Assembly (NCBI GenBank): GCA_905235745.1
Contig: CAJOMN010000001.1
Location: 248,001-312,000, forward strand
DNA: 64,000 nt
Source: an uncultured Lachnospiraceae bacterium
GTDB taxonomy: Bacteria > Bacillota > Clostridia > Lachnospirales > Lachnospiraceae
Direction of reading: 5' to 3'
The translations under genes and the position numbers were made by a program. This document shows, one piece after another, positions 12,062 to 30,415 of the stretch (position 1 is the first letter of the stretch; each line of letters opens with the position of its first letter). The notes under the pieces were generated by a model. That model ran no database searches. It saw only the letters and a list, made by a program, of their open reading frames with translations, and was not told where the DNA came from.

Positions 12062-12074
12062 GTTCTGCCGCAGC

Positions 12075-14788: not shown

Positions 14789-14791
14789 ATG

Positions 14792-15766
14792 TCAGCCCTG
14801 TCTGCGTTTTGCCACGGAAACGGTCACCCCGTCACCTGCCGTCTTCGGAACGATAAGCTTTGAGCCGCATCCTGCCGCAAGGATCGCCGCTCTCTCGCAT
14901 ACATTATCCACTCCGACTGTCTCCTCCACAAAGCCGGAGGAAGTGAAGTTTCCCTTACATCGCTTTAGTACATCCGCTTCGAACGTAATGAGAGGTATCC
15001 TGTACCTGCCGGTAAATTCCCTTATCGCAGGCTCTTTCTCTTTGATATCTATAGTTGCGAGAGCATACACTTCGTCTATTGTTATACCGGCTCCTTGTAT
15101 GGTTGACATAACATTTCTCTCGAATATATCCGCGTCTATGCCCTTCCTGGTTCCGACACCTATTACATAGCTTCGTGGCGACAGGAGAAGCGAATACTCG
15201 CTGTCTGTTTCATCGGCTATTATTATGTCAACCGGATCGGCAGGCGGATAATCTTTTACGGATATCGTTACGCTCTTGCCTTCTATAGCCTTGGCGGATA
15301 CTTTCCTGATGCCGTCTCGGTTCCTGATCCGAAGCCCGTTTTCTGCCGCAAAGACATCCGCGGAAAATGCGCCGTTAACATCCGTTGATGTCGTGATCAC
15401 GGGTATGGCTCCTATAAGGGAAGCGATCGTTACGGCAAGCTTATTGGCACCCCCTGCATGTCCCGACAGGATAGGTATTACATAGCTTCCCGCGTCATCG
15501 ATCACGATGACCGGACTGTCGGTCAACTTATCTCTTACGCACCCGCTTATCAAGCGTACCGCGATCCCGCAGGCTCCGGTAAATATAAGCGCATGACCCC
15601 GTTCAAATTCGCTTCTTACGAACTCTTCGGCGGACGGTGCTGCGGAATCTTCACCGGGAAACATATGAAGGCCGGCGCCTTCCATCCCTTTTTGCGCGTA
15701 TGCTTTATTTAGTTTTTCTATTACTTCTTTTCCGTTTCCGGTAAAGCATATCGCGGTTTTTATCAT
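14792..15766 (-). CDS. cbiG: Cobalt-precorrin-5A hydrolase (CbiG)
   Basis: A 324-residue protein with the CbiG layout. The N-terminal domain has FTGACGIAVRLISGCVRDKLTD and SGHAGGANKLAVTIA. The C-terminal domain (about 210-324) has VIGVGTRKGI and FTSSGFVEETVGVDNVCE. CbiG opens the delta-lactone and releases acetaldehyde (the C20 fragment), the step specific to the anaerobic pathway. It overlaps cbiF by 4 nt and precedes cbiH, the usual biochemical neighbours. Confidence 0.94.
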   Translation of the reverse strand: MIKTAICFTGNGKEVIEKLNKAYAQKGMEGAGLHMFPGEDSAAPSAEEFVRSEFERGHALIFTGACGIAVRLISGCVRDKLTDSPVIVIDDAGSYVIPILSGHAGGANKLAVTIASLIGAIPVITTSTDVNGAFSADVFAAENGLRIRNRDGIRKVSAKAIEGKSVTISVKDYPPADPVDIIIADETDSEYSLLLSPRSYVIGVGTRKGIDADIFERNVMSTIQGAGITIDEVYALATIDIKEKEPAIREFTGRYRIPLITFEADVLKRCKGNFTSSGFVEETVGVDNVCERAAILAAGCGSKLIVPKTAGDGVTVSVAKRRQG

Positions 15767-16536
15767 CTGTCGCCTGCCTTCTTTGTCTTCGGACGGTAAA
15801 GCGTCTCAAAGTCCGGATCATACAGCCTGGAACGGTCATAATCACCGTGTGTTACCGCCTCTCCCACGAGCACGATGGCTGTTTTCGTTATCCCGTATGC
15901 TGCCGCGCTTTTTGCAAGGGTTCCAACGGTACATATGACTGTCTTCTCATCAGGATGAGTGGCCTTATATACGATCGCCGCCGGTGTTTCGGCGCTTATG
16001 CCTCCTTCTATGAGGCGGCTGCCCAGTTCGTCGAGCATTCCGGTGCTCAGATATATTGCCATGGATGCGTTATGTGCCGCAAAGCTTTCTATGCTCTCTT
16101 TCTCGGGAACCGGTGTCCTGCCCTCCATCCTTGTGATGATAAGGCTCTGGCTGACGGAAGGGAGTGTGAACTCCATATCAAGAGCTGCCGCTGCGCCGAA
16201 GCACGCGCTTACTCCCGGGCACGATTCATATATTATCCCCCGCCTGTCAAGCTCGTCCATCTGCTCCCTTACGGCTCCGTACAGGCTCTGGTCGCCTGTG
16301 TGGAGTCTTACCACGTCTTTTCCGGATGCGTCTGCAGTTGACATAACTTTAATAACTTCCTCAAGCGTCATGACCGCGCTGTTATATATCTCCGGTGATT
16401 TTTGCGCATATTCCAGTATCTCGGGATTTACCAGGCTTCCCGCATAGATGATGACATCGGCTTTTTCTATCAACCGCATTCCGCGTACTGTTATTAGATC
16501 GCGGGCACCCGGTCCCGCTCCGACAAAACTAACCAC
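15763..16536 (-). CDS. cbiF: Cobalt-precorrin-4 C11-methyltransferase (CbiF/CobM)
   Basis: A 257-residue tetrapyrrole methylase with the signatures VSFVGAGPGARDLITVRG, ADVIIYAGSLVNPEIL, RLHTGDQSLYGAVREQ and CPGVSACFGAAAALDMEFTLP. It methylates C11 of cobalt-precorrin-4 with S-adenosylmethionine. The start is taken as the GTG preceded at 7 nt by GGGAGGG. A TTG 18 nt earlier is in frame but would place the ribosome binding site inside the gene. It follows cbiD and overlaps cbiG. Confidence 0.94.
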   Translation of the reverse strand: MVSFVGAGPGARDLITVRGMRLIEKADVIIYAGSLVNPEILEYAQKSPEIYNSAVMTLEEVIKVMSTADASGKDVVRLHTGDQSLYGAVREQMDELDRRGIIYESCPGVSACFGAAAALDMEFTLPSVSQSLIITRMEGRTPVPEKESIESFAAHNASMAIYLSTGMLDELGSRLIEGGISAETPAAIVYKATHPDEKTVICTVGTLAKSAAAYGITKTAIVLVGEAVTHGDYDRSRLYDPDFETLYRPKTKKAGDR

Positions 16537-16557
16537 TCTGCTCCCTCCCGGCAATAC

Positions 16558-17688
16558 CTATAGTAAGGATGCGTCTTTAAGCATGCTTTCCGCATTATCG
16601 GTTTTCCCCAGGAGTCCGTATTTATTGGAAAATACGATGCATGCAATCTGCATGATCCCAGCGCGTTTATTCAGATGATAACCGATACGTTCCATTATGT
16701 ATTCAAAACATTCTTTTTCGATCCCGGCTGTAAGCATCAGCTTATACGCCTCATCCGTTGAGACACAGTCAAGAATGGAAGCTGCAATGTCCGCCCGGCC
16801 GGATGATTTTACAGCGGCGGCGGCCATAAGCTCCATCCTGCAGTCCGCCTCGGCCGAATGTGTATTCATTATCCCGCCGGATACTTTGATAAGCTTTCCA
16901 ATGTGCCCGACCAGCAGCATCCGGCCGAATCCCGCATTTACCGCGGCATCTATCGCCCCGCCGATATAATTCGAGCATTTAACCGCCCTGTCGAGGTCAT
17001 AGCCGTACTGCTCCTGCATAAATGTCTGTCCGTAGTTTCCCGGTGATACGACGAGAATCTCCTCGCCCATTGCCCTCTTCTGGCGTATCTCGACCGCAAT
17101 CGTATCAAGAATCGCCCGCGTACTCATAGGCTCGACTATCCCGCTCGTCCCGATGATCGATATCCCGCCTTCTATTCCAAGCGTTGGGTTGAAGGTCCGC
17201 GCCGCCACCTCTTCACCCTCCGGGGCGGAGATTTCTATACCAATGACTCCGTCATATCCGTATCTGTCGGCAACAGAGCATACCTCCCGCTCTATCATCT
17301 GCCGCGGAACCGAATTGATCGCCCAGTCGCCCACTGGACGGTCAAGTCCCGGTCTCGTGACCCTCCCGATCCCGACGCCGCCTTCTATTATCACACGTAC
17401 CTTATCATTGCCGTTCCCGCAGGGCGCTTTGCCGGGATGAAGAACTGCCTTCGCGCATATGAGCATTCCGGCAGTGACGTCCGGATCGTCGCTGTCTGGC
17501 TTTCGGACAGCGCACGAAGCTTCATTCTTGGTTAACATAACACGCTCAACGGGTGCTGTATAATCTGTTCCTGACGGCGTTGCTACCGTGACTTTGTCGA
17601 TCTCCTCCTGCCCGAAAATCATCTGTACTGCTGCCTTGGCCGCTGCAGCGGCACAGCTTCCCGTCGTAAATCCGTATCTCATATTCAC
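16558..17688 (-). CDS. cbiD: Cobalt-precorrin-5B C1-methyltransferase (CbiD)
   Basis: A 376-residue protein with the CbiD hallmark GFTTGSCAAAAAKAA at the N terminus, then GVGIGRVTRPGL, EGGISIIGTSGIVEPMS and LLVGHIGKLIKVSGGI. It methylates C1 in the anaerobic route and marks this pathway as oxygen-independent. Start is either the GTG overlapping the cbiC stop (GTGA) or the ATG two codons later; neither has a strong ribosome binding site, which suggests coupling to cbiC translation. Confidence 0.94.
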   Translation of the reverse strand: MNMRYGFTTGSCAAAAAKAAVQMIFGQEEIDKVTVATPSGTDYTAPVERVMLTKNEASCAVRKPDSDDPDVTAGMLICAKAVLHPGKAPCGNGNDKVRVIIEGGVGIGRVTRPGLDRPVGDWAINSVPRQMIEREVCSVADRYGYDGVIGIEISAPEGEEVAARTFNPTLGIEGGISIIGTSGIVEPMSTRAILDTIAVEIRQKRAMGEEILVVSPGNYGQTFMQEQYGYDLDRAVKCSNYIGGAIDAAVNAGFGRMLLVGHIGKLIKVSGGIMNTHSAEADCRMELMAAAAVKSSGRADIAASILDCVSTDEAYKLMLTAGIEKECFEYIMERIGYHLNKRAGIMQIACIVFSNKYGLLGKTDNAESMLKDASLL

Positions 17689-18362
17689 CGCATACCGTAC
17701 AATACGGCATTCATTACCGCAGCAGCTACGTTGCTGCCACCCTTTCTCCCGGTATTGACTATACAGGGAATATCAGTACCCATTATAAGCTCCTTTGATG
17801 CCGTAACGTTAACAAACCCCACCGGGACGCCTATGACGAACGAAGGTACATAATCGCCGCTGTCATAATGCTCCCGAAGCGCAATAAGCGCGGTCGGAGC
17901 ATTCCCTATAACGAATATTACGTCACCATAGGATTTCATGGCACGTTCCATTGATACCGCTGCCCTTGTCATATTCCTTGCGGCTGCTTCTCTTACCACG
18001 TCCTCATCGGACATATAGCACTTCGCGCTGCATCCGTACTTTGCAAGTTCACGTTTGTTTATGCCGGCAAGCGCCATGTTCGTATCAGTCACTATTACAG
18101 CCCCGCCACGTATCAGCCCCTCAAGTACACCTACGGCGCCGTCTGTAAAATACATTGTCTTCGCGTAGTCAAAGTCGGCTGTGGTGTGTATACATCTTTT
18201 AATAACTTGCGTTATCTTATTGCGTTCACCGGCAGATTCAACAGGAATATCTCCGTTTATGAGCACCTGCATGTGTTCAAGCTCGGAAGATATTATTGCA
18301 AAGCTTTCCTTTTCTATCTCCGACGGATCCGATGTTCTGATATTAATGTATGCGTCATCCAT
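17685..18362 (-). CDS. cbiC: Precorrin-8X methylmutase (CbiC/CobH)
   Basis: A 225-residue enzyme that moves the methyl group from C11 to C12 to give (hydrogeno)cobyrinic acid. The catalytic His lies in IKRCIHTTADFDYAK, and the C-terminal motifs GNAPTALIAL, IGVPVGFVNVTASKEL and NTGRKGGSNVAAAVMNAV are those of the family. The start at MDDAYINI is preferred: AGGA lies just upstream and the length fits. It overlaps the 3' end of cobD by 8 nt. Confidence 0.94.
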   Translation of the reverse strand: MDDAYINIRTSDPSEIEKESFAIISSELEHMQVLINGDIPVESAGERNKITQVIKRCIHTTADFDYAKTMYFTDGAVGVLEGLIRGGAVIVTDTNMALAGINKRELAKYGCSAKCYMSDEDVVREAAARNMTRAAVSMERAMKSYGDVIFVIGNAPTALIALREHYDSGDYVPSFVIGVPVGFVNVTASKELIMGTDIPCIVNTGRKGGSNVAAAVMNAVLYGMR

Positions 18363-19419
18363 TTTTCCTGACAATCCCTGCCAGACTGTCCGCAAGTCTG
18401 ATATTATCTTCACGGCATCTTACCGCCGTTCTGTAGAACCTCTCATCAAGTCCGTTATAATCAAGGCATTTTCTGATCATTATCCTATCTTCAAGAAGCT
18501 TCTCATAAATGTCTTGTTGACCTTTAAATAAAATGAAATTCGTGTTGCTCTCAAACGGCTTCAGACCCGTTTCGGATAATCTCTCCGTTAAAAAAGCACG
18601 CTCGTGCTGTATCATCGATATGGAATTTCTGTAAAATCCCCCGTCATCTGCCACTGCTGAAAGGCTGCACATAAGTGCAGATGATACCGACGAAAGATTC
18701 CATTCGGGGAGATGCTCCCGGAGCCGGGAAACGTTGTTGCTGCTGCTTACAGCGTATCCCATCCTGATACCGGGAAGAGCAAAACATTTAGTGTATGATA
18801 CTATTATAAACAGATTGGGATACTTTTGTATCCAATCTGCCATATTCTCACCCGTGCATTGCAGATACTTGTCCGACAACATATAAAAGCTGTTGTCAAG
18901 TACGACCGTTATATTCTCATCACATGATTTTTCAAGTATGCCCGCAAGAAGATCATTATCGATGTTCTGCCCCGTCGGGTTAGCGGGATCCGCAAGGAAG
19001 ATCATGTCCTCTTCCGGTGTTATCGCATCAAGAACATCCGCCGTCAGGACAAAACCGTCGTCTTCTTGTACATAGTAACGTTTGATATCACTGCATCCGG
19101 CAGCCTTGAGCGCATATTCATAGCCGCTGTAGCACGGTTCAACGAGAAGAGCCCTCTTCGGAGCACACATCCCTGCGACAGCCATTATAAGCTCCGATGC
19201 CCCGTTTCCAGCGACCACGCAGCCGCTGTCTATCCTTTCCGAATCGGCAATGGCTGACCTTACGGCAGACTGGGCAATATCCGGATACGCATTTGCCAAG
19301 GCTATGCCTTCCCTTACCGCCTCCCCGATTATACGCTTAAGCCCCGGGGTGCCATAGGGGTTTAAGTTAACCGAAAAATCAATATCGACAATGTTATTAT
19401 ATATATCACCGCCGTGCAT
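18355..19419 (-). CDS. cobD: L-threonine-O-3-phosphate decarboxylase (CobD-type, HisC-like aminotransferase fold)
   Basis: A 354-residue PLP enzyme of fold type I that makes (R)-1-amino-2-propanol phosphate, the linker between the corrin ring and the nucleotide loop. Evidence is the N-terminal DFSVNLNPYGTP, the nucleotide-type GNGASELI, LADPANPTGQ, and the PLP lysine in SYTKCFALPGIRMGY. Location among cobalamin genes favours CobD over histidinol-phosphate aminotransferase. The ATG has GGAGGCAGT upstream and overlaps the 3' end of cbiB by 58 nt, an unusually long overlap. Confidence 0.9.
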   Translation of the reverse strand: MHGGDIYNNIVDIDFSVNLNPYGTPGLKRIIGEAVREGIALANAYPDIAQSAVRSAIADSERIDSGCVVAGNGASELIMAVAGMCAPKRALLVEPCYSGYEYALKAAGCSDIKRYYVQEDDGFVLTADVLDAITPEEDMIFLADPANPTGQNIDNDLLAGILEKSCDENITVVLDNSFYMLSDKYLQCTGENMADWIQKYPNLFIIVSYTKCFALPGIRMGYAVSSSNNVSRLREHLPEWNLSSVSSALMCSLSAVADDGGFYRNSISMIQHERAFLTERLSETGLKPFESNTNFILFKGQQDIYEKLLEDRIMIRKCLDYNGLDERFYRTAVRCREDNIRLADSLAGIVRKNG

Positions 19420-20399
19420 ACTGCCTCCGTCGCGTACATAAGCTTCACCGAACGCCCGATATCCGCAATCTCCGGCTCTCTGTATCCGTCTCCTATATAC
19501 GGTTTGGAAACGGGGACGCCTCCGTAGCTGCTGGTGCCGCCAAGCCTTACTCCAAGCGCTCCGGCACAGGCACTCTCACACTGTGCGCTGTTGGGGCTGC
19601 TGTGCGCCATCCTGTCGCGCCGCCATACCTCATAGGAACGCTTCATATCATAATTCGGTTTGTTTCCTGCCTTTCCGATAAGTTCGAGCAGACCGGCCGC
19701 GGCGATCATAATAATTGCGCTGATCCTGGATGGTATGTAATTGGCCGCATCATCGGATCGTGCCGCAAATCTTCCGAAATACTCATATCTTGCGTTTTTA
19801 TAGCCTATCATCGAGTCCATAGTGTTGACAGCCTTATACATTAGCCCAAGAACAGGTCCGCCGACTGCCGTATATATGAGCGGCGCTATGACACCGTCGG
19901 ACGTATTCTCCGCAACTGTCTCCACTGCTGCCCGGGCTATCCCGGTCTCGTCAAGCTCCGCGGTGTCGCGTCCAACTATCATGGAAAGGGAAGCCCTGGC
20001 ATCCCCGATATTGCCCACGCACGATCCTGCATCTCCTGTCAGGCAGTAGTATACTTTCATGCTCTCACGGCCAAGCTGCCTTGCCGCAAGGCAGTAATAC
20101 GTAAGAACCGCCTCTGCCGCCGCAAACAGGATTTTACCCGTCATTGCGGCAAGGATTATTATCCCGGCGGCAATTGCCCCCGTCGTCAATACGACCGCAA
20201 ACCACAGCACAGCGCCGCGCCGGATCAGGCTTTTTCCGGAAAGCTCTTTATCCGGCAGAAGGCCTCTTTCAAGCGCGGATATATACGCGCCTATCGCTCT
20301 TACCGGATGCGGAATGCCATGCGGATCTCCGATGGCAAGGTCAAGTATTATCCCCGCTGCCAATGCGATCATATGTAACGTCATATATTCTTTCATCAT
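19362..20399 (-). CDS. cbiB: Adenosylcobinamide-phosphate synthase (CbiB)
   Basis: A 345-residue integral membrane protein that attaches aminopropanol phosphate to adenosylcobyric acid. It shows the N-terminal DLAIGDPHGIPHPVRAIGAYI, typical of CbiB, several membrane spans, VGRDTAELDETGIARAAVETVAENTSDGVIAPL in the conserved centre (quoted here as adjoining parts) and MAHSSPNSAQCESACAGALGVRLGG near the C terminus. It begins inside the 3' end of cobC (59-nt overlap) and ends inside cobD. Confidence 0.93.
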   Translation of the reverse strand: MMKEYMTLHMIALAAGIILDLAIGDPHGIPHPVRAIGAYISALERGLLPDKELSGKSLIRRGAVLWFAVVLTTGAIAAGIIILAAMTGKILFAAAEAVLTYYCLAARQLGRESMKVYYCLTGDAGSCVGNIGDARASLSMIVGRDTAELDETGIARAAVETVAENTSDGVIAPLIYTAVGGPVLGLMYKAVNTMDSMIGYKNARYEYFGRFAARSDDAANYIPSRISAIIMIAAAGLLELIGKAGNKPNYDMKRSYEVWRRDRMAHSSPNSAQCESACAGALGVRLGGTSSYGGVPVSKPYIGDGYREPEIADIGRSVKLMYATEAVCTAVIYIITLSILIFRLT

Positions 20400-20958
20400 T
20401 CACCGTCATCCGTATAACATATCCGTCAAGATTCGGGACAAGATAATCATAGTAGTTCCCGCCGCACAGGCGGCTCATTATCGCCATTATACAGCCCCCG
20501 TGGCACACTACCGCTGTTTTATCATTATCCCTCGACCGGTCGATGATGTTATGTAAACTTCTCATCGTCCTGTCCGTGAATTCTTCCATACTCTCACCGT
20601 TTGGAAACCTGAGCGTCCCGTACGAATCTATCCACTGCCTGTAACGTATGTCCCCGGAAAGTTCTTCGGCGGATTTTCCTTCAAAATCACCGAAATCGAT
20701 CTCCGTCAGATCCTCTTCCACATATATGCTCTCATTCGGAAAGATGAGGGCAGCCGAATCTTTTGCCCTCTTTAGCGGTCCGGTACAGACCATCGCGCCT
20801 TCAGAGAGCTTCCGGAGCCTGTCGGCGTTTTCTTTTACCCTCCGTATCCCCTCGTCAGAAAGCGGAGCGTCGATGCCGCGGCCCATATACCTTCCGCCCG
20901 CATTATATTCGGTCACACCGTGCCGTATGAGTATCAGTGTCTTATTATATGCAGTCAT
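20341..20958 (-). CDS. cobC: Histidine phosphatase, probable alpha-ribazole-5'-phosphate phosphatase (CobC)
   Basis: A 205-residue member of the phosphoglycerate-mutase-like superfamily. The catalytic RHG motif is in LIRHGVTEYNAGGRYMG, and the second His is in VVCHGG near residue 155. In the nucleotide-loop branch this enzyme dephosphorylates alpha-ribazole phosphate or the final cobalamin phosphate. The assignment rests on fold plus its position between cobS and cbiB. It overlaps cobS by 4 nt. Confidence 0.85.
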   Translation of the reverse strand: MTAYNKTLILIRHGVTEYNAGGRYMGRGIDAPLSDEGIRRVKENADRLRKLSEGAMVCTGPLKRAKDSAALIFPNESIYVEEDLTEIDFGDFEGKSAEELSGDIRYRQWIDSYGTLRFPNGESMEEFTDRTMRSLHNIIDRSRDNDKTAVVCHGGCIMAIMSRLCGGNYYDYLVPNLDGYVIRMTVNDERIYDVTYDRIGSGDNT

Positions 20959-21740
20959 ACGTTAATATAAAGTGCGGATACGGCAAGAACTGCCAGCGCG
21001 AATATCTCACCTGCCGTCACATAGTAACCGGCAGTATCTCCGGTTATCCCGCCGAACTCTTTTGCCGTCATATGCCGGTAAAACAACGTGAATACGGTAA
21101 ATGCGAGCACTATCATTCCCGTATGCACCGGATTCAGATACGCCATGAGCGCCGTTACCGCTATGAGCTGTATCATCAGGACGACAATGTCCGCATTCCT
21201 GATGTTCATAGTCTCGGTAACGAGCATGCCGTCGCCTTTTGCCTTTTTCATGTATATCGATGTAAGGGCGGCAAGCGCCCTTGCGATAACAAATATTCCG
21301 CAGGCGAGCACATAGACCGGCCTTGACGCCCTCGAATCAAGGTTGATTATGACAACGAGTGAACAAAGCGCGATAATCCCCGCCGTGACCAGTCTTATGA
21401 CTGAGAAGGCGCCAATGTGCGGATCCTTTAATATTGCAAGCTTTTCATCCATGGACCGATGCGAACTTTTCGCATCCACCGTATCCATGAATCCGTCAAC
21501 GTGAAATCCGCCCGTTACTATTAAAGGCACGATCATTATTATCATCGCCCTGACCGACACAGGCGCGGGCAGTATAGTAAGAATCCTCACAAGTGCAAAC
21601 ATGATCGCTCCGATGAGAGCCCCGATAAGCGGAAGAAACATGATGCACTGCGTATCCTCGTCCTTTGCCTTAAATCCAGGCATCGGGATCCTCGAGTACA
21701 TCGAAAAAGCAGCCGGTATACACCTTAATATCCTTATCAT
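20955..21740 (-). CDS. cobS: Adenosylcobinamide-GDP ribazoletransferase (cobalamin synthase, CobS)
   Basis: A 261-residue multi-spanning membrane enzyme that joins adenosylcobinamide-GDP with alpha-ribazole (or its phosphate). The N-terminal AAFSMYSRIPMP and the conserved GGFHVDGFMDTVDAKSSHRSMDEKLAILKDPHIGAFSV region (positions about 75-115) are diagnostic. Six or so membrane spans follow. It lies 45 nt after cobU and overlaps cobC. Confidence 0.94.
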   Translation of the reverse strand: MIRILRCIPAAFSMYSRIPMPGFKAKDEDTQCIMFLPLIGALIGAIMFALVRILTILPAPVSVRAMIIMIVPLIVTGGFHVDGFMDTVDAKSSHRSMDEKLAILKDPHIGAFSVIRLVTAGIIALCSLVVIINLDSRASRPVYVLACGIFVIARALAALTSIYMKKAKGDGMLVTETMNIRNADIVVLMIQLIAVTALMAYLNPVHTGMIVLAFTVFTLFYRHMTAKEFGGITGDTAGYYVTAGEIFALAVLAVSALYINV

Positions 21741-21785
21741 CCGATCAATCCCTCCGATCTGTGAATAATAATCTGTCGTTTACTA

Positions 21786-22322
21786 TCACTGTAATACGCC
21801 GGTATCGATAACTTTGTCTGCCATATTTCTCAGAATTATGTTAACTATATCCAGAAGCGTCTTGTACAGCCTCGTCTCCTCATCGTCCGCTTCCTCTGGC
21901 CCGTACACGCCGGTTACAACAATAAGGCTTCCCACCAGGTCCGCAAGCGCCGCTACCTTATCTGCCGCCCTGCGGGCAAAATCACGTGCCCCGTCTTCAC
22001 CTGACCGGCAAATATCATACGTTTCCGGATCATACATCATATTGGCGGTCAGATTGGCAGCGCATTCAAGTAAAACAGCGCTGTTTGGCGGATCAGCCAT
22101 AAGCTTTGCTGCCGATACAATATCCGTTTCGATCTCAAGTGTTGTAAAGCCTTTTCCTGCCCGCATTGCCCTGTGGCGTCTTATGCGTTCATATCCGGCT
22201 TCATCGACGGCTTTCATTGTGGCTATGTAGTATCGGTCCATATATGGTTCGTCAAGCAGCATCTGCTCAGCCAGATGTGATTTTCCGCTCTCAGGCGGGC
22301 CGATTATAAGCGTGATCAACAA
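21786..22322 (-). CDS. cobU: Adenosylcobinamide kinase/guanylyltransferase (CobU)
   Basis: A 178-residue P-loop protein with IIGPPESGKSHLAEQML at the N terminus and the RIRRHRAMR segment that carries the guanylylated histidine. It phosphorylates adenosylcobinamide and transfers GMP to make adenosylcobinamide-GDP. The start is a TTG that overlaps the cobT stop, with GAGAGG 5 nt upstream, so translation is coupled to cobT. The usual cobT-cobU-cobS order is kept. Confidence 0.9.
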   Translation of the reverse strand: MLITLIIGPPESGKSHLAEQMLLDEPYMDRYYIATMKAVDEAGYERIRRHRAMRAGKGFTTLEIETDIVSAAKLMADPPNSAVLLECAANLTANMMYDPETYDICRSGEDGARDFARRAADKVAALADLVGSLIVVTGVYGPEEADDEETRLYKTLLDIVNIILRNMADKVIDTGVLQ

Positions 22323-23404
22323 TCATACCTCTCATACTGCCTGATACCGGTATCCGCAAATACCGTTCCGTTATCATATACGGACATAACCATATCGAGC
22401 AGCGGAAAGAGCATTACCGCTCCTGTGCCTTCGCCCAGAGCCATATCGGCGTATATTACAGGATCAAGCCCGAGCATATCAAGAGCGCCTTTGCATCCTC
22501 GTTCCTTCCCGCTGTGCGATGCAAGGATATACCCTTTTACTTCGGGATGCCATGCATATGCAGTAAGAGCAGCGACCGCGCTTATGAATCCATCGATAAC
22601 TACTGTTATCGCATTGCGCGCGCATCCTGTATACAATCCCGCGAGTGCTGCTATATCAAGGCCTCCTACACATTTCAAGGCATTAAATACGAACTCGCGG
22701 TCAAGCGCATTTTCATGGGTGTTATTTAATTTATGGAGTCGAAGGGCTCTTTCTATAACATCTGTTTTTATTTGAAGTCCTTCATCATCCAGACCCGCGC
22801 CCCTGCCCGCTACAGCTGTTGCCGGGCTTTGTGAGAGTGCACAGAACAGGGCAGAAGAAGTAGTCGTGTTCCCTATTCCCATTTCTCCCGTTGCAACAAG
22901 CTTAATACCGCGCTCTTTGCACATATCCGCTGCCCCGATGCCCGCGCTTACGGCTGCAAGGCATTCTTCTTCGCTCATCGCGCATTCTTTTGCAATGTTT
23001 TTTGTGCCATGGGCTGCTTTACAGTCAATGACTCCGGGTATCTGTCCTGACGAATCCGTTCCGACATCTATCGGTATTATGTCAACCGGATAGCCCTCTG
23101 TCATCACACCTACCGTACTTCGCCTCTTTCCCATAAGACGTGCCACGGATCCCGTAACATCAGGCGTTGTCTGCGAAACACCCTCCTCGACGACACCGTT
23201 ATCCGCTATCATTATAACAAGACCCTTTCGGGAAATGTCCGGTCTGTCGGTACGCTGATCGGATGCGATCTTGCATATCATCTTCTCAAAAGCCCCGAAT
23301 CCGTCGATGGGTTTGGCAAGGCTGTCAAATCTGGCTGCGGCATTTTTATAAGCGTTTACGTCAGGCTCATCTATTATAATCTCAAACAGTTCTTCTTTTG
23401 TCAT
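22316..23404 (-). CDS. cobT: Nicotinate-nucleotide-dimethylbenzimidazole phosphoribosyltransferase (CobT)
   Basis: A 362-residue enzyme that activates the lower-ligand base to its alpha-riboside phosphate. Signatures include VIMIADNGVVEEGVSQTTPDVT, TGEMGIGNTTTSSAL, VGGLDIAALAG and the C-terminal ALGEGTGAVMLFPLLDM, whose Glu is the catalytic base in the family. The actual base used (dimethylbenzimidazole or another) cannot be read from the window; no bluB or bza genes are present. It follows the ABC ATPase-CbiP fusion closely. Confidence 0.95.
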   Translation of the reverse strand: MTKEELFEIIIDEPDVNAYKNAAARFDSLAKPIDGFGAFEKMICKIASDQRTDRPDISRKGLVIMIADNGVVEEGVSQTTPDVTGSVARLMGKRRSTVGVMTEGYPVDIIPIDVGTDSSGQIPGVIDCKAAHGTKNIAKECAMSEEECLAAVSAGIGAADMCKERGIKLVATGEMGIGNTTTSSALFCALSQSPATAVAGRGAGLDDEGLQIKTDVIERALRLHKLNNTHENALDREFVFNALKCVGGLDIAALAGLYTGCARNAITVVIDGFISAVAALTAYAWHPEVKGYILASHSGKERGCKGALDMLGLDPVIYADMALGEGTGAVMLFPLLDMVMSVYDNGTVFADTGIRQYERYDC

Positions 23405-23407
23405 CCC

Positions 23408-25741
23408 CTAATTTACCTTTTCAAGACCCATCATCCTATAGATCGCATCCATATCAAGACTGGCACGGACGGTGTCGGCAAGTATGTCTGCCTGCTTCTG
23501 CCGGTATTCGTCCCGGTCGCAAAGCTTTGGTATATCCGTTTCCCGTCCCGCGAAGCGTAGGATAGCATTTACTGCGGCAGCAGCCGTACCGCCTTCATCA
23601 AACAGCCCATGCACATACGTTCCGTATATATTGCCAAGGCAGTAGCCGGTTGCGTCCGACGTGAACTCGTTCACGTTTTCGTATGGTTTCGTGCTTCCCA
23701 TATGTATCTCGTAGCCTTTTATCATCCGTCCGGAAAGCGGCGACAGCGCTCCCGTGGCATTTACTATAGTGCCTTCAAACTGTCTCGTCGTTTTTTGGGG
23801 CAGCAGTACGGTATCGACCGGGAGCAGCCCGAGACCTTCCGCAGCCTCTCCTCCCTCTACCGACTCCGGATCGCTTACATTTCTTCCAAGCATCTGAAAT
23901 CCGCCGCATATGCCAAGAACCGGAACGGATGACTTTGCAAGGTTTATGACGGCATCGGCCATTTTCGTCTCCCACAGCCACTTAAGATCCCCTATAGTGT
24001 TCTTGGTTCCGGGAAGTATTACAATATCGGCGCCTTCTGCCTGCCCGGGGCGGCTAATATACCTTACGGATACATCCGGCGACGCGTCAAAAACATCAAG
24101 ATCGGTATAATTAGCTATATGTGGGAGCCTCACGACAGCAATATCAAATGATCTTCTCCCGGTAAGCCGCAGTCTGTCGGAGAGGGAGTCTTCTTCGTCA
24201 AGGTTTATATCGATATAAGGGATAACGCCGATGACTTTTGATCCCGAACGGGCTTCAAGCGCCCCGATACCCGGTCTTAGCAGTTCTTCGTCTCCCCTGA
24301 ATTTGTTGATCACAAGCCCTCCGACCCTTGAGCGCTCTTCCGGCTCCAGAAGATCAAGCGTTCCGATAAGCTGTGCGAATACACCGCCCCTGTCTATATC
24401 GCCCGCGAGTATCACCGGACAGTCGATCATTCCGGCAAGGCCCATATTTACGATATCGTTTTCCTTCAGGTTGATCTCTGCCGGGGATCCGGCACCCTCG
24501 ATAACGATCACGTCATATTCCGATGCAAGATCATCATATGCCTTCCGGATGACCGGAACAAGCGATCTCTTATATTCGTAATACTCTCCGGCGCGCATAT
24601 TCCCTACGGATTTCCCCATGACTACGACCTGGGAGCCGCAGTCGTCGGTAGGCTTTAACAGTATCGGATTCATGCGCACATCCGGGGAAGTATAGGCACA
24701 CATTGCCTGCAGCGCCTGGGCTCTTCCCATTTCAAGCCCGTCCCCTGTAATATATGAGTTATTTGCCATATTCTGTGACTTGAAGGGAGCCGTTTTGTAC
24801 CCGTCGGCAGCAAATATCCTGCAAAGAGCGGCGGTAATGACGCTCTTTCCGACGCCGGACATCGTGCCCTGGATCATGATCGCATGCGTACGGCGCTCAC
24901 CTGCTTCCGGCCAACCGGCGGACGCATCGCGATCTGTTAACTTATCTTCATCTACATCATACCAGAGTGTTCCCATCATTCCGACATCGGCGTCCCCGAG
25001 CTTATAGAGGCTCCTGATGAAACTCTCGGTAAAGACCTCCCGGGGAGTACCGATCCGCAATATCTTCCCGTCTCCTACCGCCGCCACTGTATCCGACAGC
25101 TTCATGGCAATCTCGGGCTCATGCAGTGACAGGAGGACCGCTATGTTATCCTCCTTTGCAAGCTTTCTGATCCTGGTAAGTATATCTGTCTTGTAGCGTA
25201 TATCAAGATATGATGTCGGTTCATCGAGGACGAGTATTCCCGGATCCTGGGCGATCGCCCTAGCAAGCAGTACCCTCTGCCGCTGTCCGTCACTGATGTT
25301 CGTAAACAGTCTGTCGGCAATGTCAGCCGTATCCGTTGCTTCCACAGCCTCTTCGACTTTCTTCCTGTCCTCTTCGCTCATCCTCCCGAACAGACCCGTA
25401 TAAGGGTAGCGCCCGCTTTCTATCACCTCTCTGCACGTCATAAGTTCGGCTTCCGCACGACCCGTCATGAGCGTCGAAATCCTTCGGGCGCTCTTTTTGA
25501 CGGGAATCCCGGATTTATCGCATCCGTCAAGCATGATCACCCCGGCTCTCGCATCGAGCAGTCCCGTAACGGTTCTGAGGATAGTCGATTTTCCACTGCC
25601 ATTCGGCCCGATGAGCGTTACTATCTTACCGGGTCTTACCTCAAGCGCTATATCCTTTACGATATCACTGTCATATCCTACTGTAAGGTCAGATGTGCAA
25701 AGACCCGTATCCCTTCCGTTATCCGTCTTCGGGTCATACAT
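23408..25741 (-). CDS. Fusion of an ABC importer ATPase (BtuD/FecE-like) and cobyric acid synthase (CbiP/CobQ)
   Basis: A single 777-residue frame. Residues about 15-270 are an ABC ATPase: Walker A IGPNGSGKSTI, signature NISDGQRQRVLLARA, Walker B GILVLDEPTS and the H-loop LLSLHEPE. Residues about 286-777 are CbiP: P-loop MIQGTMSGVGKSVITAAL, then KSQNMANNSY, the amidotransferase Cys in VLGICGGFQMLGR and GYEIHMGST. CbiP adds four amides (b, d, e, g) to adenosylcobyrinic diamide. The junction is a short charged linker near residues 270-285 with no stop or frameshift. The gene overlaps the permease by 8 nt, so the first half surely serves that importer. Confidence 0.93.
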   Translation of the reverse strand: MYDPKTDNGRDTGLCTSDLTVGYDSDIVKDIALEVRPGKIVTLIGPNGSGKSTILRTVTGLLDARAGVIMLDGCDKSGIPVKKSARRISTLMTGRAEAELMTCREVIESGRYPYTGLFGRMSEEDRKKVEEAVEATDTADIADRLFTNISDGQRQRVLLARAIAQDPGILVLDEPTSYLDIRYKTDILTRIRKLAKEDNIAVLLSLHEPEIAMKLSDTVAAVGDGKILRIGTPREVFTESFIRSLYKLGDADVGMMGTLWYDVDEDKLTDRDASAGWPEAGERRTHAIMIQGTMSGVGKSVITAALCRIFAADGYKTAPFKSQNMANNSYITGDGLEMGRAQALQAMCAYTSPDVRMNPILLKPTDDCGSQVVVMGKSVGNMRAGEYYEYKRSLVPVIRKAYDDLASEYDVIVIEGAGSPAEINLKENDIVNMGLAGMIDCPVILAGDIDRGGVFAQLIGTLDLLEPEERSRVGGLVINKFRGDEELLRPGIGALEARSGSKVIGVIPYIDINLDEEDSLSDRLRLTGRRSFDIAVVRLPHIANYTDLDVFDASPDVSVRYISRPGQAEGADIVILPGTKNTIGDLKWLWETKMADAVINLAKSSVPVLGICGGFQMLGRNVSDPESVEGGEAAEGLGLLPVDTVLLPQKTTRQFEGTIVNATGALSPLSGRMIKGYEIHMGSTKPYENVNEFTSDATGYCLGNIYGTYVHGLFDEGGTAAAAVNAILRFAGRETDIPKLCDRDEYRQKQADILADTVRASLDMDAIYRMMGLEKVN

Positions 25742-26741
25742 TGTCCTTTTTCCTCCTGATCATCACGGTAATGACAACGGGAACAAGAAGCACAGCGGTT
25801 ATCGTGCTTACCGAGACCTCCGTCGGAGCAAACAGACTCCTTGCTATGCCGTCGCATATAAGCGTGACCGCTCCCCCGAGCAGAAAACAGCCCGGTATCA
25901 TGACAGCCGGTGAACTTGTCCGGGCCATTGATTTCCACAAATGCGGAACCGCAACGCCGACAAATGATATAGGACCCGCAAACGCAGTAACCGTTGCGGC
26001 AAGCAGGCTCGATATAAGGATCAGCAGAATCCTTAACAATGTTATGTTAACCCCTTCGGTCCTTGCGATATCTTCGCCGAGTCTGTAGGCTCCCAAAGGC
26101 TTGACAAGAAATACCGATGCAATGAGGCATAGACCGACGATAGTTGACATAACTCCGATATCCCGCATGCCGATGCCGGAAAAGCTTCCGAGCGACCAGT
26201 TGTGAAGATTAACTATATTCGAGTCGTCGGCAAACGTTACAACAAGATCGGTTATGGCCGAGCATATGTACCCTATCATGATCCCGCATACAACGAGTAC
26301 GCCCATGCTCTTTACGCGGACCGATACAGCAAGGACAAAAGCCATCGATATCAGGGCTCCGATAAATGCCGCGACTACAAGGGAAACCGTTCCCGGTTTT
26401 CCGGATGCGGTCACGCAAAATATAAGCGTAAGCGCAACCGCAAGCTTGGCTCCCGAAGATATTCCAAGCACGAACGGTCCCACTATCGGATTATTGAAGA
26501 ATGTCTGGAGCATATATCCCGAAAGGGCAAGTGCGCCGCCAAGAATAACAGCTGCTATTATTCTTGGAAGACGAATAAATAACACCACGTTAGCTTCAAT
26601 CGTCCCTGCCAGCCTGCCTGCAAGAGCCGCAAAAACCTCGGATGCAGACATAACAACCGTTCCTGTTATGATATTTACATAAGCGCTTATGATCAGCAGC
26701 AGGATAACTGCAGCAAACGCGATACAACATCGTCTCTTCAT
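25734..26741 (-). CDS. btuC: FecCD/BtuC-family ABC transporter permease
   Basis: A 335-residue very hydrophobic protein with about nine or ten membrane spans and the family motifs RLPRIIAAVILGGALALSGYMLQ, GISSGAKLAVAL and GPISFVGVAVPHL. It would form the homodimeric channel for a corrinoid, cobalt-tetrapyrrole or siderophore-like ligand. Its neighbours are a solute-binding lipoprotein upstream and an ATPase domain downstream. Operon context under a cobalamin riboswitch favours a corrinoid or related ligand, which is inference. Confidence 0.9.
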   Translation of the reverse strand: MKRRCCIAFAAVILLLIISAYVNIITGTVVMSASEVFAALAGRLAGTIEANVVLFIRLPRIIAAVILGGALALSGYMLQTFFNNPIVGPFVLGISSGAKLAVALTLIFCVTASGKPGTVSLVVAAFIGALISMAFVLAVSVRVKSMGVLVVCGIMIGYICSAITDLVVTFADDSNIVNLHNWSLGSFSGIGMRDIGVMSTIVGLCLIASVFLVKPLGAYRLGEDIARTEGVNITLLRILLILISSLLAATVTAFAGPISFVGVAVPHLWKSMARTSSPAVMIPGCFLLGGAVTLICDGIARSLFAPTEVSVSTITAVLLVPVVITVMIRRKKDNV

Positions 26742-28336
26742 TTCAGTTTCTCAAAAAACCCGTTAAGCGCCGCATTTCCCTCTGTCAGATTTCTAAGATC
26801 CGACAGATATCCGGCTGTTTCGGTCGGATGTTGGAAAAAATCACCGCTCGTACAATATACATTCCGGTCATTGACAGCCGCAAAATCGGCAAAAAGGGGA
26901 TTCAGACCGATAAGATCCGAAACGGATCCTATCCCGCCCTGTATCGTGCTGTTATATATAAGTATATCCGCATCACATGTCCCTGCATAGAAGTCTTCCA
27001 TCTGCATATTGATCGTACCGGACACTCCTTCCATGGAAACATCGGAGTAATCGGGGACATAATCGCCACCGGCTAGCTCTATCAGATTTGTGATGTAATC
27101 CCCCGGCCGTCTCACAGTGATCAGCCCCGAAGCGGATACCGAGAAGAAAGCGACCTTCTTGCCGGTCTTCCCGGATTCAATAACTTGTGTTATTTCTTTC
27201 TCACACTGCCTGAAACTGTCTTCGGACTCCTTCTCTTTCCCGTAGAGAGTTCCGTAGAGTTTGATCCATTCAAGGCGCCCTATCGGATCCCTTTCATAAC
27301 TGGATGTTTCCACAAGAACAGGAACCGACAGTTCCTCGAGCTTTTCCTTGACCGCGGGATCATGATATATCATGGTGTTTTCGATCGCAAGGTTACATCC
27401 GTCGGACAATATCAGTTCGTAATCCGGCGTCCTGTACTTCCCGGCGTAGACAATCTTACCCTCTCTCATCAGATCAGCCGCCTCTTTCACGGACCAGTCT
27501 TCCTCCCTAGTGCCCGAAAGACTTATCATATCCAGCGCGCCAATCTGCCTGATAAGATCCATGACCGATGTGGAGACGAGATACGTCCTGTCAAGCGGCT
27601 GTCTCAGTATAGTTATGTTAACCGCATCTCCCGTTTCGGCATCCGTTATCTCAGGTTCCGGCTTTCCTTCAGGCACAAGCAGATAATCGTCCGCACCGTA
27701 TATCCTTATAAGTCTGTAATCGTCGTATTTAATTATATCAAAGCCTTCGGCATATGAAAGTAATATTCTGCCCGTAGAACTCTTGCCGTCCACAAGATAC
27801 TCCGCAGACTCTTCGGGTCTTCTTCCGAATACGGTATTTTCCGGCTCCCCGTCATTACCGGATTGCGATATGTTTCCGGTTTGAGGAGAGCCGCTCCTGC
27901 CCGTCGCGCCCCAGGTGATGGTATACTCTATCTCGTGAGGCTTGCTCATCGCAACCGTATCGGCAATAAAACGGAATGGCTCATCCAATGATTTTACCGG
28001 GACGGTAAATGAAGACTTCCCACCGGGATTCTCGTTTAGGTACTTATCGCCGTCAACGATAACATAGTCGTAGTTTTCACTGTTCCAGACAAGTCTTGCG
28101 TATGTAACCCCGTCTTTTTCGAATATCTCTACAGGCGACTCAACATAAGCTTTTCCGGAGCCTCCCTCCATAGTTATGTCAACCGTATATGGCCGGGTAT
28201 TCTCTTGTTGCGATTGAAATGTAACCTCCCGCGAAGTGCAGGAGGTTACAAACAATGCTATTATTAACGGCAACAGTGCCGCTGCTGCTCTCTTTACGAT
28301 TTTATTCGGGATTTGAAACCGAGACTTTATGGTCAT
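26738..28336 (-). CDS. ABC transporter substrate-binding lipoprotein (BtuF-like) with an extra N-terminal beta domain
   Basis: A 532-residue lipoprotein: signal segment with lipobox-like FVTSC near residue 33, then an N-terminal domain of about 110 residues (YTVDITMEGGSGKAYVESP ... FTVPVKSLDEPFRF ... HEIEYTITW) that looks like a NEAT-type or related beta sandwich. A linker follows, then a class III periplasmic-binding fold in the C-terminal half (VSTSVMDLIRQIGALDMI, LAIENTMIYHDP, ELAGGDYVPD). The fold fits a corrinoid or heme-like ligand. The ATG is preceded by GGGA at 7 nt and overlaps the end of cbiK by 35 nt. The N-terminal domain is absent from ordinary BtuF. Confidence 0.85.
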   Translation of the reverse strand: MTIKSRFQIPNKIVKRAAAALLPLIIALFVTSCTSREVTFQSQQENTRPYTVDITMEGGSGKAYVESPVEIFEKDGVTYARLVWNSENYDYVIVDGDKYLNENPGGKSSFTVPVKSLDEPFRFIADTVAMSKPHEIEYTITWGATGRSGSPQTGNISQSGNDGEPENTVFGRRPEESAEYLVDGKSSTGRILLSYAEGFDIIKYDDYRLIRIYGADDYLLVPEGKPEPEITDAETGDAVNITILRQPLDRTYLVSTSVMDLIRQIGALDMISLSGTREEDWSVKEAADLMREGKIVYAGKYRTPDYELILSDGCNLAIENTMIYHDPAVKEKLEELSVPVLVETSSYERDPIGRLEWIKLYGTLYGKEKESEDSFRQCEKEITQVIESGKTGKKVAFFSVSASGLITVRRPGDYITNLIELAGGDYVPDYSDVSMEGVSGTINMQMEDFYAGTCDADILIYNSTIQGGIGSVSDLIGLNPLFADFAAVNDRNVYCTSGDFFQHPTETAGYLSDLRNLTEGNAALNGFFEKLK

Positions 28337-29921
28337 ACCATTTTCCCTTTGTTCCGATAAGCGCCAGATCGAACTCATCATCAAGGTAAGGCACCGGAAC
28401 ATCAAATCCGTATACTTCCTCTGTCGTTCCATCACTGTATTCTACCGTATCCGTCGTTGGTTCGAGGATTCCGGCTTCGTCTTTTACCGCTTCTTCGGCC
28501 GTTCCCGGGAACAGATTGACTATATTTTTCGAACCGAGAGTTATATGCGCCGTCATTTGACCGTCCGCTACTGTCAGATCACATTTTCCGTCAAGTTCCT
28601 CATTGACCTTGAACATTGAGCTGTCGGTCGTAAAAGAGGCTTTATACACACCGTCCGCAAGGACGGCTTCTTCCTTGTCCTTGTCCGTTTCCGATGATAC
28701 TGCATCACCAAGCGAGTCAATGGCTGCCTTTGTATGTGCAACGTACAGATCCTGTATCTCTTTAATCCTGCCAAGCCCCGCTATCTGGCATTCTACATCC
28801 TCAAAGGCAGCGGAAGCGTTAAACCGGCTCTTCCAGCTGTCATCATCATCCCCTGCCATGTCATTGTTTGCGTGATCTCCGGCAACTACCATAAGAGGAC
28901 GCAGTATCACATCGTTATATCCTGCCTCCTGTACAGATTCTATTATATTTTCGCAGGATGTCTCTTCAGGCTCACCTTCAACCGTTCCGATAAACACGTT
29001 CTTATATCCGAGATCCGCCATCTGTGCGGCCATCTGGCTGTAGCTTATCTTGGCGGTATGCGCCGTTCCGTGACCCATGAACACAAATGCCCGGCTGTCC
29101 GAGGCAGCCGCGTCAATGCTCTCATAACCGGCATCACTTACCGCTGCGGCAGTAATTGCTTCGGCAACTGCCTTCTTGTCATCGTTTATGATAGTAGCGT
29201 CTTCTCCGACTTTGCCGAGGAGGGGCTCGGCAACAGCAACCTTCTCAAACCTGCCTTCATACTGCGAAAGAGCTTCCGTCAGCTCGTCATACTCCGCACC
29301 ATGCATCAGATGGGTCGGCTGGATCACAAGATTCCTGACACCGTTTTGAACAGCCCTGTCGAGCGCCTGGTCAATGTTATCGATCTTCTCACCGTCGCGT
29401 GCCTGTATATGGTTGATGATTATCTGCGCGGTAAATGCTCTTCTGACTGACCAGTCGGGATATGCGGCAGCGATCGCTTTTTCCACTCCGCCTATATCCG
29501 TGGCTCTCGAATCATTGAATGATGTACCGAATGACGCGACGATTATCTCGTTATCGCCTATGTCATCACCGTTAAGAGGATCATCGTTTGAGGCATCCCC
29601 GGTATCTCTTCCGAAATAGTCGGGGTCTGCGTCCTCGCCCTCTACGAGCTCCTTCTGGGCATCCGTCAGTTCGTCCCATTTCTGCTTTGCCAGTCTGCAC
29701 AGCTCATCAGTCTCATCGGTACGCTCCTGAACGTAGATCGCGTCTATAAGTGCCGCGACCTCATCGGCCTTTTCCTGATCGGAAACCGCTTCGCTTTCCT
29801 CCTTTGTCTCATTCCCTTCGCCACCGCCTGCCGGGATGCCGGTATTTACGCCTGCACATCCTGCAAGGATTGCCGCTGCGGATACCGATACCGCAAGAAC
29901 TGCCATGATCTTATTCTTCAT
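28302..29921 (-). CDS. cbiK: Lipoprotein sirohydrochlorin cobaltochelatase (CbiK-like) with an extra C-terminal domain
   Basis: A 539-residue protein with a signal peptide and lipobox LAGC near residue 22, so it is predicted to sit outside the membrane. A Glu/Asp-rich helical spacer precedes the class II chelatase domain (about 125-405): IIVASFGTSFNDSRATDIGG, the metal-binding His in IQPTHLMHGAEYDEL, and FMGHGTAHTAKISYSQM. A C-terminal domain of about 115 residues (DGVYKASFTTDSSMFKVN ... FDVPVPYLDDEF ... HKVSVSN) follows. CbiK inserts Co2+ into sirohydrochlorin, normally in the cytoplasm. The ATG has GGAGG 9 nt upstream. It is the first gene after the cobalamin riboswitch. Confidence 0.9.
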   Translation of the reverse strand: MKNKIMAVLAVSVSAAAILAGCAGVNTGIPAGGGEGNETKEESEAVSDQEKADEVAALIDAIYVQERTDETDELCRLAKQKWDELTDAQKELVEGEDADPDYFGRDTGDASNDDPLNGDDIGDNEIIVASFGTSFNDSRATDIGGVEKAIAAAYPDWSVRRAFTAQIIINHIQARDGEKIDNIDQALDRAVQNGVRNLVIQPTHLMHGAEYDELTEALSQYEGRFEKVAVAEPLLGKVGEDATIINDDKKAVAEAITAAAVSDAGYESIDAAASDSRAFVFMGHGTAHTAKISYSQMAAQMADLGYKNVFIGTVEGEPEETSCENIIESVQEAGYNDVILRPLMVVAGDHANNDMAGDDDDSWKSRFNASAAFEDVECQIAGLGRIKEIQDLYVAHTKAAIDSLGDAVSSETDKDKEEAVLADGVYKASFTTDSSMFKVNEELDGKCDLTVADGQMTAHITLGSKNIVNLFPGTAEEAVKDEAGILEPTTDTVEYSDGTTEEVYGFDVPVPYLDDEFDLALIGTKGKWYDHKVSVSNPE

Positions 29922-30177: not shown

Positions 30178-30415
30178 TGTTTCTGTACAGGCAGAAGGCC
30201 GGTCTCCTGGCTTGTATATCAGCATATGCCCTTAGCCTTCCCGGGAAGTAAATGTCCCAGTGACATGTTACGGTAAATGCATTCTTTACCATAACATCAA
30301 CAAAAGCATACTCCATACTTACAGTGACGAGTTCGCACAGGATTTGCACCTGTTTCCCAAATTGTTCCTTCTGTCTTTCGATATGACCAGGCATGATCAC
30401 CCATGCCTTTTTGAC
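30178..30415 (-). ncRNA. Cobalamin riboswitch aptamer
   Basis: Read on the minus strand, the leader contains the conserved core in the right order: GGGAAACAGGTGCAAATCC (30340-30358), CACTGTAAG (about 30318-30326), a variable stem region, and the B12 box AAGCCAGGAGACCGGCC (30197-30213). This matches the class I adenosylcobalamin element. It lies between a strong promoter and an intrinsic terminator upstream of cbiK, so high corrinoid should stop transcription of the whole operon. End points are approximate. Confidence 0.93.

Follow-up and report, generated by a model that had tools for sequence, protein, structure and literature searches.

The system described here, a CbiK-type cobaltochelatase lipoprotein encoded ahead of an importer, lies in a 64,000-nucleotide stretch of DNA from an uncultured Lachnospiraceae bacterium (contig CAJOMN010000001.1, positions 248,001 to 312,000; hereafter the window), and its closest described counterpart is Iht of P. 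gingivalis. Iht combines a surface CbiK-type lipoprotein with a binding protein, a permease and an ATPase, and removal of iron from heme has been proposed for IhtB (PMC10913741). For FetB, surface insertion of manganese into protoporphyrin has been reported (PMC13402209), and P. gingivalis has been noted to lack the steps to precorrin-2 (PMC6461909). The locus in the window shares the set of CbiK-type lipoprotein, binding protein, permease and ATPase, but Iht (IhtA-E) is Gram-negative, includes a TonB receptor and is described for heme or iron uptake, whereas here we find Gram-positive relatives, NEAT-like domains, a B12 riboswitch, a corrin operon and an ATPase fused to the cobyric acid synthase CbiP. 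No TonB-dependent receptor that would be the counterpart of IhtA is seen in the operon, and the named relatives are Gram-positive Clostridia.

D. vulgaris has a periplasmic CbiK (CbiK-P, PDB 2xvx) and an additional cytosolic one. CbiK is exported in both cases, but here it is single and predicted to be lipid-anchored, and D212 aligns to His96 of CbiK-P, which we take to be a heme ligand. The Isd heme-uptake system of Gram-positives, which is under iron control, is a further parallel, with the differences that in our locus the NEAT-like domains fall below the Pfam cut-off, a chelatase stands in the chain and control is by B12 rather than by iron. Isd moves a tetrapyrrole along NEAT modules to a binding lipoprotein and an ATP-binding cassette (ABC) importer, and heme is the ligand of NEAT domains in other Gram-positives (PMC3832793). 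The cbiK-cbiL and btuCDF genes of Desulfovibrio share control by one B12-element (PMC545781).

Tetrapyrrole precursor salvagers, mostly Firmicutes, keep the corrin pathway while missing its early steps (Shelton et al. 2018, PMC6461909), and the genome of the window appears to resemble them in this respect. That study tested salvage of 5-aminolevulinic acid in three species, and the parts of it examined name no uptake system for later precursors. According to a review, precorrin-2 salvagers make up 0.6% of genomes (PMC8123684), and a gut-genome survey treats the transport of B12 and its precursors as an open problem (PMC6593275). A rumen study reports a cobaltochelatase and BtuFCD in one organism, describing the enzyme as transporting sirohydrochlorin and adding cobalt and reading BtuFCD as B12 uptake (PMC12654859); a role in transport has thus, in part, been suggested before. 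In the literature we searched, largely outside subscription journals, we found no description of a Gram-positive secreted CbiK with an importer and no paper that brings together a NEAT domain, cobalamin and CbiK. An earlier annotation of the window, made from its letters alone (the original prediction), had considered a Gram-positive lipoprotein version with importer to be undescribed; its novelty is reduced by the Iht and Desulfovibrio B12-element precedents and by the wide spread of the arrangement in Lachnospiraceae.

On balance, we favor a surface system that captures a tetrapyrrole precursor, probably inserts cobalt, and then imports the product to feed B12 synthesis. Low B12 would relieve the riboswitch and the operon would be expressed. 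Outside the membrane, CbiK and the NEAT-like domains would catch a ring at the level of precorrin-2 or sirohydrochlorin released from other cells, and CbiK, the single class II chelatase that the genome searches revealed, would insert Co2+ there. The domain fusions and the operon order suggest that the NEAT-like domains would then relay the ring to the binding lipoprotein, from which it would reach the FecCD/ATPase importer, and inside, CbiL, CbiH, CbiF and the later enzymes would finish cobalamin.

The signal peptide and lipobox that the original prediction placed on CbiK are both found, and the lipobox cysteine, C22, is invariant in alignment A1 and present in at least 90% of alignment A2 (we identified signal peptides with a simple rule of our own and by eye). 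Between the signal peptide and the chelatase domain, the conserved module at aa 46-125 matches no Pfam family above cut-off. The chelatase domain scores 237 bits against a PF06180 cut-off of 26.2, while the NCBIfam equivalog NF047852 is missed (186 against 400 bits); it belongs to the same family but is not the standard equivalog, which fits CbiK being a distinct branch. Among solved structures it matches S. enterica CbiK (1qgo, E=6e-38), the heme-binding protein FetB (9b86, E=3e-37), which we take to be one protein with IhtB, and D. vulgaris CbiK (2xvx, E=1e-27). E210, H284 and H350 align with E89, H145 and H207 of S. enterica, and E315 with E184 of D. vulgaris, residues that presumably serve as metal or catalytic ligands in the solved CbiKs. 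All four, including the chelatase histidines, whose conservation had been proposed as a check, are invariant in 30/30 sequences (the window and 29 relatives). The chelatase site is intact, and Co2+ insertion is predicted from it. A degenerate CbiK serving purely as a binder is rejected, given the invariance of these residues.

The assembly to which the window belongs (2.50 Mb in 32 contigs, 99.46% complete) has no match in model searches for HemB, HemC, HemD, a CysG/SirC domain or CobN, and no uroporphyrinogen methyltransferase over cut-off. In 14 control genomes, models matched HemC in 11, HemB in 11, HemD in 12, the methyltransferase over cut-off in 11, CysG-N in 9, CobN in 5 and CbiX in 10; the HemD search covered the window's own genome and these controls. 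An assembly gap is an unlikely explanation, since HemB, HemC, HemD, the methyltransferase and CysG-N are all absent at once from a genome in whose relatives these models do find matches. The original prediction had also proposed looking for a second CbiK, which would weaken a biosynthetic role; none was found in the genome, and the CbiX model matches only the CbiK gene already described. A second cytosolic chelatase is rejected, since the CbiK, CbiX, CysG/SirC and CobN searches found none, and the only cobaltochelatase found carries an export signal.

The later pathway, on the other hand, is kept. There are five tetrapyrrole-methylase loci in the genome: CbiF, CbiH and CbiE in the operon, CbiL on contig C23, and one on contig C14 that we take to be a putative RsmI. 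CbiL scores 161.2 bits, just under its cut-off of 163.25, and CbiH, CbiF, CbiD and CbiA are over theirs. Together, the operon (10604-25741) and CbiL make the corrin and nucleotide-loop pathway complete apart from the adenosyltransferase, with several genes named by eye. In salvagers the steps above the salvaged precursor are missing, and here HemB, HemC, HemD and the methyltransferase were not found in searches that did not extend to HemA and HemL. Since no ring source was found, yet CbiL and the later corrin enzymes are kept, a ring at the precorrin-2 or sirohydrochlorin level would have to come from outside; the bacterium appears unable to make the early B12 ring precursor, and we think it quite likely that the imported ring is at the level of sirohydrochlorin. 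We also noted that the CbiL gene (L076 9934-10722(+), genome G000, contig C23) is not part of the corrin operon's neighborhood; a transposase-like gene adjoins it and an apparent butyrate kinase gene lies upstream of it, both named by eye.

The CbiK gene starts at an ATG at 29921, preceded by a GGGAGGA ribosome site, and the span originally given for it and its neighbor, 26738-29921(-), is correct, running from the stop of the binding protein to this ATG. The binding protein, permease and ATPase genes overlap the preceding gene by 35, 4 and 8 nt, respectively. After the ATPase-CbiP fusion come CobT, CobU, CobS, CobC, CbiB, CobD, CbiC and CbiD, followed by CbiF, CbiG, CbiH, a CbiJ-CbiE-CbiT fusion and CbiA, which ends at 10604. 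Family models back CobT, CbiJ-E-T, CbiF, CbiH, CbiD and CbiA, and the other genes after the fusion were named by sequence recognition. All 17 genes overlap or are separated by gaps of at most 45 nt and the nearest further open reading frame (ORF) is 332 nt off, so we read them as one operon of about 19.3 kb, and we read the riboswitch and the 17 genes as a single corrin operon headed by the CbiK and importer genes. The riboswitch upstream of CbiK was absent from the original prediction.

In that prediction, the three cistrons after CbiK were a binding lipoprotein, a FecCD-type permease and an ATPase. The first two are confirmed, but the third is not a plain ATPase: ABC_tran covers aa 28-177, the ATPase is the N-terminal third, and aa 287-771 are a cobyric acid synthase (613 bits against a cut-off of 273). 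The same fusion is present in 21/80 named loci (80 kept of at least 580 relatives, with at least 597 stretches matched), and it ties the importer to the corrin pathway itself. The importer is like BtuFCD in overall type and in its B12 riboswitch control, but the permease reaches 171.9 bits against the BtuC B12 equivalog (cut-off 334) and the ATPase 194.3 bits against that of BtuD (cut-off 537), and the binding protein carries a NEAT-like domain. At E<=0.001 two solved binding proteins match, the hemin-binding protein Lmo2184 (5joq), which is the nearest, and 4ovk; BtuF is not among them. With the B12 equivalog cut-offs missed and Lmo2184 as the nearest solved binding protein, the original label "BtuFCD-like" is too narrow.

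These BtuC and BtuD matches, though below cut-off, and the B12 riboswitch would also suit uptake of B12 or cobinamide, with CbiK as an accessory corrinoid- or cobalt-binding surface protein, and the B12-element over cbiK-cbiL and btuCDF in Desulfovibrio (PMC545781) points the same way. We consider such a corrinoid importer improbable, since it would leave unexplained both a full corrin operon without a found ring source and the intact chelatase residues, and since the solved matches of the binding protein are Lmo2184 and 4ovk, not BtuF.

There are two divergent NEAT-like domains, one in CbiK and one in the binding protein. Neither the last ~120 residues of CbiK nor aa 48-142 of the binding protein match a Pfam family over cut-off. 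The NEAT profile matches 15/22 homologues of the CbiK domain (best E=1.9e-5) and 10/21 homologues of the binding-protein domain (best E=1.3e-4), and the domains of the window itself score 13.3 bits (E=0.12) and 13.7 bits (E=0.089), respectively, under the 32.8-bit Pfam cut-off. We call them NEAT-like because NEAT is the family that most homologues match, yet the window domains are below cut-off. The profile of the CbiK domain has four matches in the PDB at E<=10, none of them strong (E 0.005-0.03). Two carry the name Iron Transport-associated domain and the other two, 3sik and 3sz6, that of "Conserved domain protein"; the latter are B. anthracis NEAT proteins (IsdX1). The profile of the binding-protein domain has no match in the PDB. 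By profile comparison the two domains are alike (prob 65.6, E=5.8e-5), and direct BLAST between them gives short pieces only. They end in WYDHxV in 22/22 and HEIxY in 21/21 homologues, motifs that in an alignment by eye sit at the place of the YxxxY heme motif of NEAT domains.

The location of these domains varies among relatives. Of the 80 named loci, 70 have the first domain on CbiK and 10 have it separate. The second domain belongs to the binding protein in 40 loci, to CbiK in 9 and to a separate ORF in 16; it is cut by the contig end in 4 and not found in 11; the profiles used for these counts were built from members of the same loci. Six of the 16 separate ORFs also hold the first domain, and two short ones (L163 and L191) are possibly split frames. 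Domains that change places among neighbors in this way are the pattern of proteins handing one ligand on, and we infer that they connect the chelatase with the importer. Judged from sequence, the outward location, importer coupling and tetrapyrrole handling outside the cell that the original prediction proposed are supported, and both the absence of the early pathway and the presence of NEAT-like domains add to their strength; its interpretation as a whole is partly supported.

NEAT domains of other Gram-positives are heme binders (PMC3832793), removal of heme iron has been suggested for IhtB (PMC10913741), and FetB is as close to our CbiK as the S. enterica enzyme is (E=3e-37 and 6e-38), all of which would agree with heme or iron acquisition, in which CbiK strips iron from heme or binds heme at the surface as proposed for IhtB/FetB. 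Given the cobalamin riboswitch upstream of most secreted CbiKs scanned, the place at the head of a corrin operon and the ATPase-CbiP fusion, we regard this as very unlikely. Cobalt scavenging, with the lipoprotein concentrating surface Co2+ and the importer carrying a cobalt complex, has in its favor that the CbiK ligands can bind Co2+ and that cobalt supply is generally known as a B12-regulated function. We give it hardly any credence, because FecCD-type importers are generally known to carry large chelates, the NEAT-like domains point to a macrocycle, and the missing ring would be left unsolved.

The arrangement of CbiK and importer is widespread in Lachnospiraceae. Binding protein, permease and ATPase directly follow CbiK in 51/60 named loci with at least 6 kb downstream, and the lipobox rule is met in 71/80 named CbiKs. 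Named carriers of this CbiK include Butyrivibrio, Roseburia porci, Coprococcus comes, Eubacterium ramulus, Oribacterium and a Blautia, as well as many rumen Lachnospiraceae assemblies; no importer was found beside CbiK in Coprococcus comes (L188) or in two Oribacterium loci (L198, L203). The riboswitch lies just upstream of CbiK in 19/19 named loci that were picked for shortness (one of which, L213, is apparently the same contig as L141) and in 19/24 other secreted loci scanned, being missing in L038, L128, L119, L122 and L087, of which L119 has only ~70 nt upstream.

For a broader comparison, we used a sample of the order comprising 295 genomes, mapped for CbiK, HemC, CbiD and the methyltransferase. 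From it 119 CbiK loci were taken, with weaker or partial matches left out, and 118 ORFs including that of the window were tabulated, L114 being counted as unsecreted after reading. G112 and the second CbiKs of G147 and G170, all unsecreted, stand outside the counts of 46 secreted and 72 unsecreted CbiKs, the tree and the pair tests. A homologous binding protein follows 34/46 secreted CbiK ORFs and 0/72 of those without a signal, and chance adjacency of CbiK and binding protein is rejected by these counts.

Secretion was compared with the early pathway, by which we mean HemC and the methyltransferase over cut-off, with genomes holding one of the two set aside. Among CbiD-bearing genomes with completeness of 90% or more and contamination of 5% or less in which a CbiK was read, CbiK is secreted in 20 of the 27 without the early pathway and in 21 of the 57 with it (G112 included; Fisher p=0.0022). 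In the window's family the counts are 13/13 and 14/19 (p=0.064), and none of those 13 genomes had another CbiK read; in the other families, with G112 excluded, they are 7/14 and 7/37 (p=0.038). Searches for HemB, CbiX and CysG-N covered 80 of 113 CbiD-bearing genomes. HemB had no match over cut-off in 41/43 genomes lacking HemC, as against 3/37 with HemC; the two exceptions are 78% and 70% complete, and one of the other 41 has a match below cut-off. In the CbiK tree of 118 domains, the 46 secreted ones fall in one part (support 89/62, weak), which also holds 10 unsecreted, with 6 changes of state. The early-loss label changes at least 8 times in the secreted rows and 3 times in the unsecreted rows, so lineages with a secreted CbiK have repeatedly lost or retained the early pathway. 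In the case of the near-identical CbiKs of G187 and G266, the former genome has HemC and the latter does not.

Several observations weigh against our interpretation. Of the 21 early-pathway genomes with a secreted CbiK, 15 have no cytosolic one, so the trait is not tied to salvage alone, and 7 of the 27 genomes without the early pathway carry only a cytosolic CbiK. Controlling for the tree leaves few pairs: 9 differ in early loss, secretion changing as expected in 2 and in the opposite direction in 0 (sign test not significant, median p 0.5), and the reverse test has 4 pairs, with a few pairings including one opposite pair. With so few pairs, the association between secretion and early loss is not confirmed. 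In 10/46 secreted CbiKs no binding protein or permease was detected downstream, although two of these have less than 900 nt of downstream sequence and six have the permease and ATPase upstream instead. A riboswitch lies within 1 kb upstream in 2 of 19 unsecreted loci (L101 and L138, both picked for a B12-box pattern; the other 17 have none), and 7/80 named CbiKs have a plain signal without lipobox, by eye. The substrate is predicted from sequence. Finally, G266 and G238, which lack HemB, HemC and the methyltransferase, keep a Met8/CysG-N type enzyme (L237 6842-7558(+) and L238 5865-6479(+), adjoining LysR regulators), which suggests that some metal-free ring enters there.

The importer is also found where CbiK is not outside. 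G153 and G045 are without the early pathway and have a cytosolic CbiK, and still the binding protein, permease and ATPase are in the corrin cluster. In G286 (L240) there is no match for HemB, HemC or CbiK and no methyltransferase over cut-off, and the importer set is again in the corrin cluster; a cobalamin riboswitch heads the importer/corrin cluster in both G153 and G286. The importer thus recurs while the place of CbiK varies. That of G286 may import an already metallated ring, and import of a metal-free ring in G153 and G045, and of a metallated one where CbiK is outside, is plausible. In view of G153, G045, G286, G266 and G238, whether cobalt is inserted before import is in our opinion evenly balanced.

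The same genomes bear on capture without metallation, in which the secreted CbiK would bind sirohydrochlorin as a "tetrapyrrophore", the metal-free ring would be imported and cobalt would be inserted inside. Two relatives without the early pathway keep the Met8/CysG-N enzyme, the importer in G153 heads a cluster with a cytosolic CbiK where metal-free import is plausible, and a chain of binding steps is suggested by the NEAT-like domains. Searches of the genome to which the window belongs, however, gave no further class II chelatase and neither a CysG/SirC domain nor CobN, and chelatase residues invariant in 30/30 are unexpected for a pure binder, so for this bacterium we hold capture alone to be unlikely, and continue to favor capture with probable cobalt insertion and import.

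Some of the relatives have other arrangements of the same enzymes. G205, G230 and G258, among the 15 genomes with an early pathway and only a secreted CbiK, have HemC and the methyltransferase and no HemB match, and are candidate porphobilinogen salvagers. In G161, G195 and G285, of one genus, HemB and HemC were not found and the methyltransferase and CysG-N are in one frame of 456-469 aa, making them candidate uroporphyrinogen III salvagers. In G283, a cytosolic CbiK is fused behind a CbiO-like ABC ATPase (L074 8002-9705(-)), with a riboswitch ~2 kb upstream, and direct cobalt hand-over from importer to chelatase is possible there. An S41 peptidase gene (L150 6978-7982(+)) lies between the importer and the cytosolic CbiK of G153. 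Elsewhere in the window we noted, by the look of the sequence, a HipA-like protein at 37606-38853(+) and a DUF1016/PDDEXK-type nuclease at 41696-42832(-). The features of the operon are listed in Table 1.

Table 1. Features of the corrin operon and its CbiK and importer genes, in window positions.
Feature	Position	Strand	Basis
Cobalamin riboswitch, operon leader	30180..30386	-	Rfam RF00174, full model, 81.2 bits (gathering cut-off 31.5), E=1.9e-18
CbiK-type cobaltochelatase lipoprotein, 539 aa	28302..29921	-	PF06180; PDB relatives 1qgo, 9b86 (FetB), 2xvx
Lipoprotein signal peptide of CbiK, lipobox LAGC (C22)	29856..29921	-	sequence MKNKIMAVLAVSVSAAAILAGC
Conserved ~80-aa N-terminal module of CbiK, aa 46-125	29547..29786	-	many invariant columns in alignments A1 and A2
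CbiK chelatase domain, aa 126-401	28719..29546	-	PF06180 E=2.8e-70
Divergent NEAT-like domain of CbiK, aa 422-539	28305..28658	-	NEAT (PF05031) profile
Substrate-binding lipoprotein, 532 aa, lipobox VTSC (C33)	26738..28336	-	PF01497 E=1.3e-22; 5joq E=2.4e-9
Divergent NEAT-like domain of binding protein, aa 48-142	27911..28195	-	NEAT profile; profile comparison
Peripla_BP_2 domain of binding protein	26849..27577	-	PF01497 E=1.3e-22
FecCD-type permease	25734..26741	-	PF01032 E=5.5e-71
Importer ATPase fused to cobyric acid synthase CbiP, 777 aa	23408..25741	-	family models
Rest of operon, CobT to CbiA	10604..23404	-	ORFs and spacing; family models for part

The system is a concrete and widespread candidate, with testable parts, for the supply of the ring in corrin producers that have lost the front end of the pathway, and it predicts cross-feeding on sirohydrochlorin among common Lachnospiraceae. 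It also suggests that the Iht system of P. gingivalis can be read in terms other than heme, and it means that salvagers can be mislabeled when cbiK is counted as evidence of de novo B12 synthesis. We propose, tentatively and at slightly less than even confidence, that the locus encodes a Gram-positive extracellular metallation and import machine, with cobalt insertion at the surface, hand-over by NEAT-like domains, and an importer whose ATPase is fused to a corrin enzyme. If this is true, B12 synthesis would begin its first committed step extracellularly, and members of gut and rumen communities would feed one another with half-made B12 rings.

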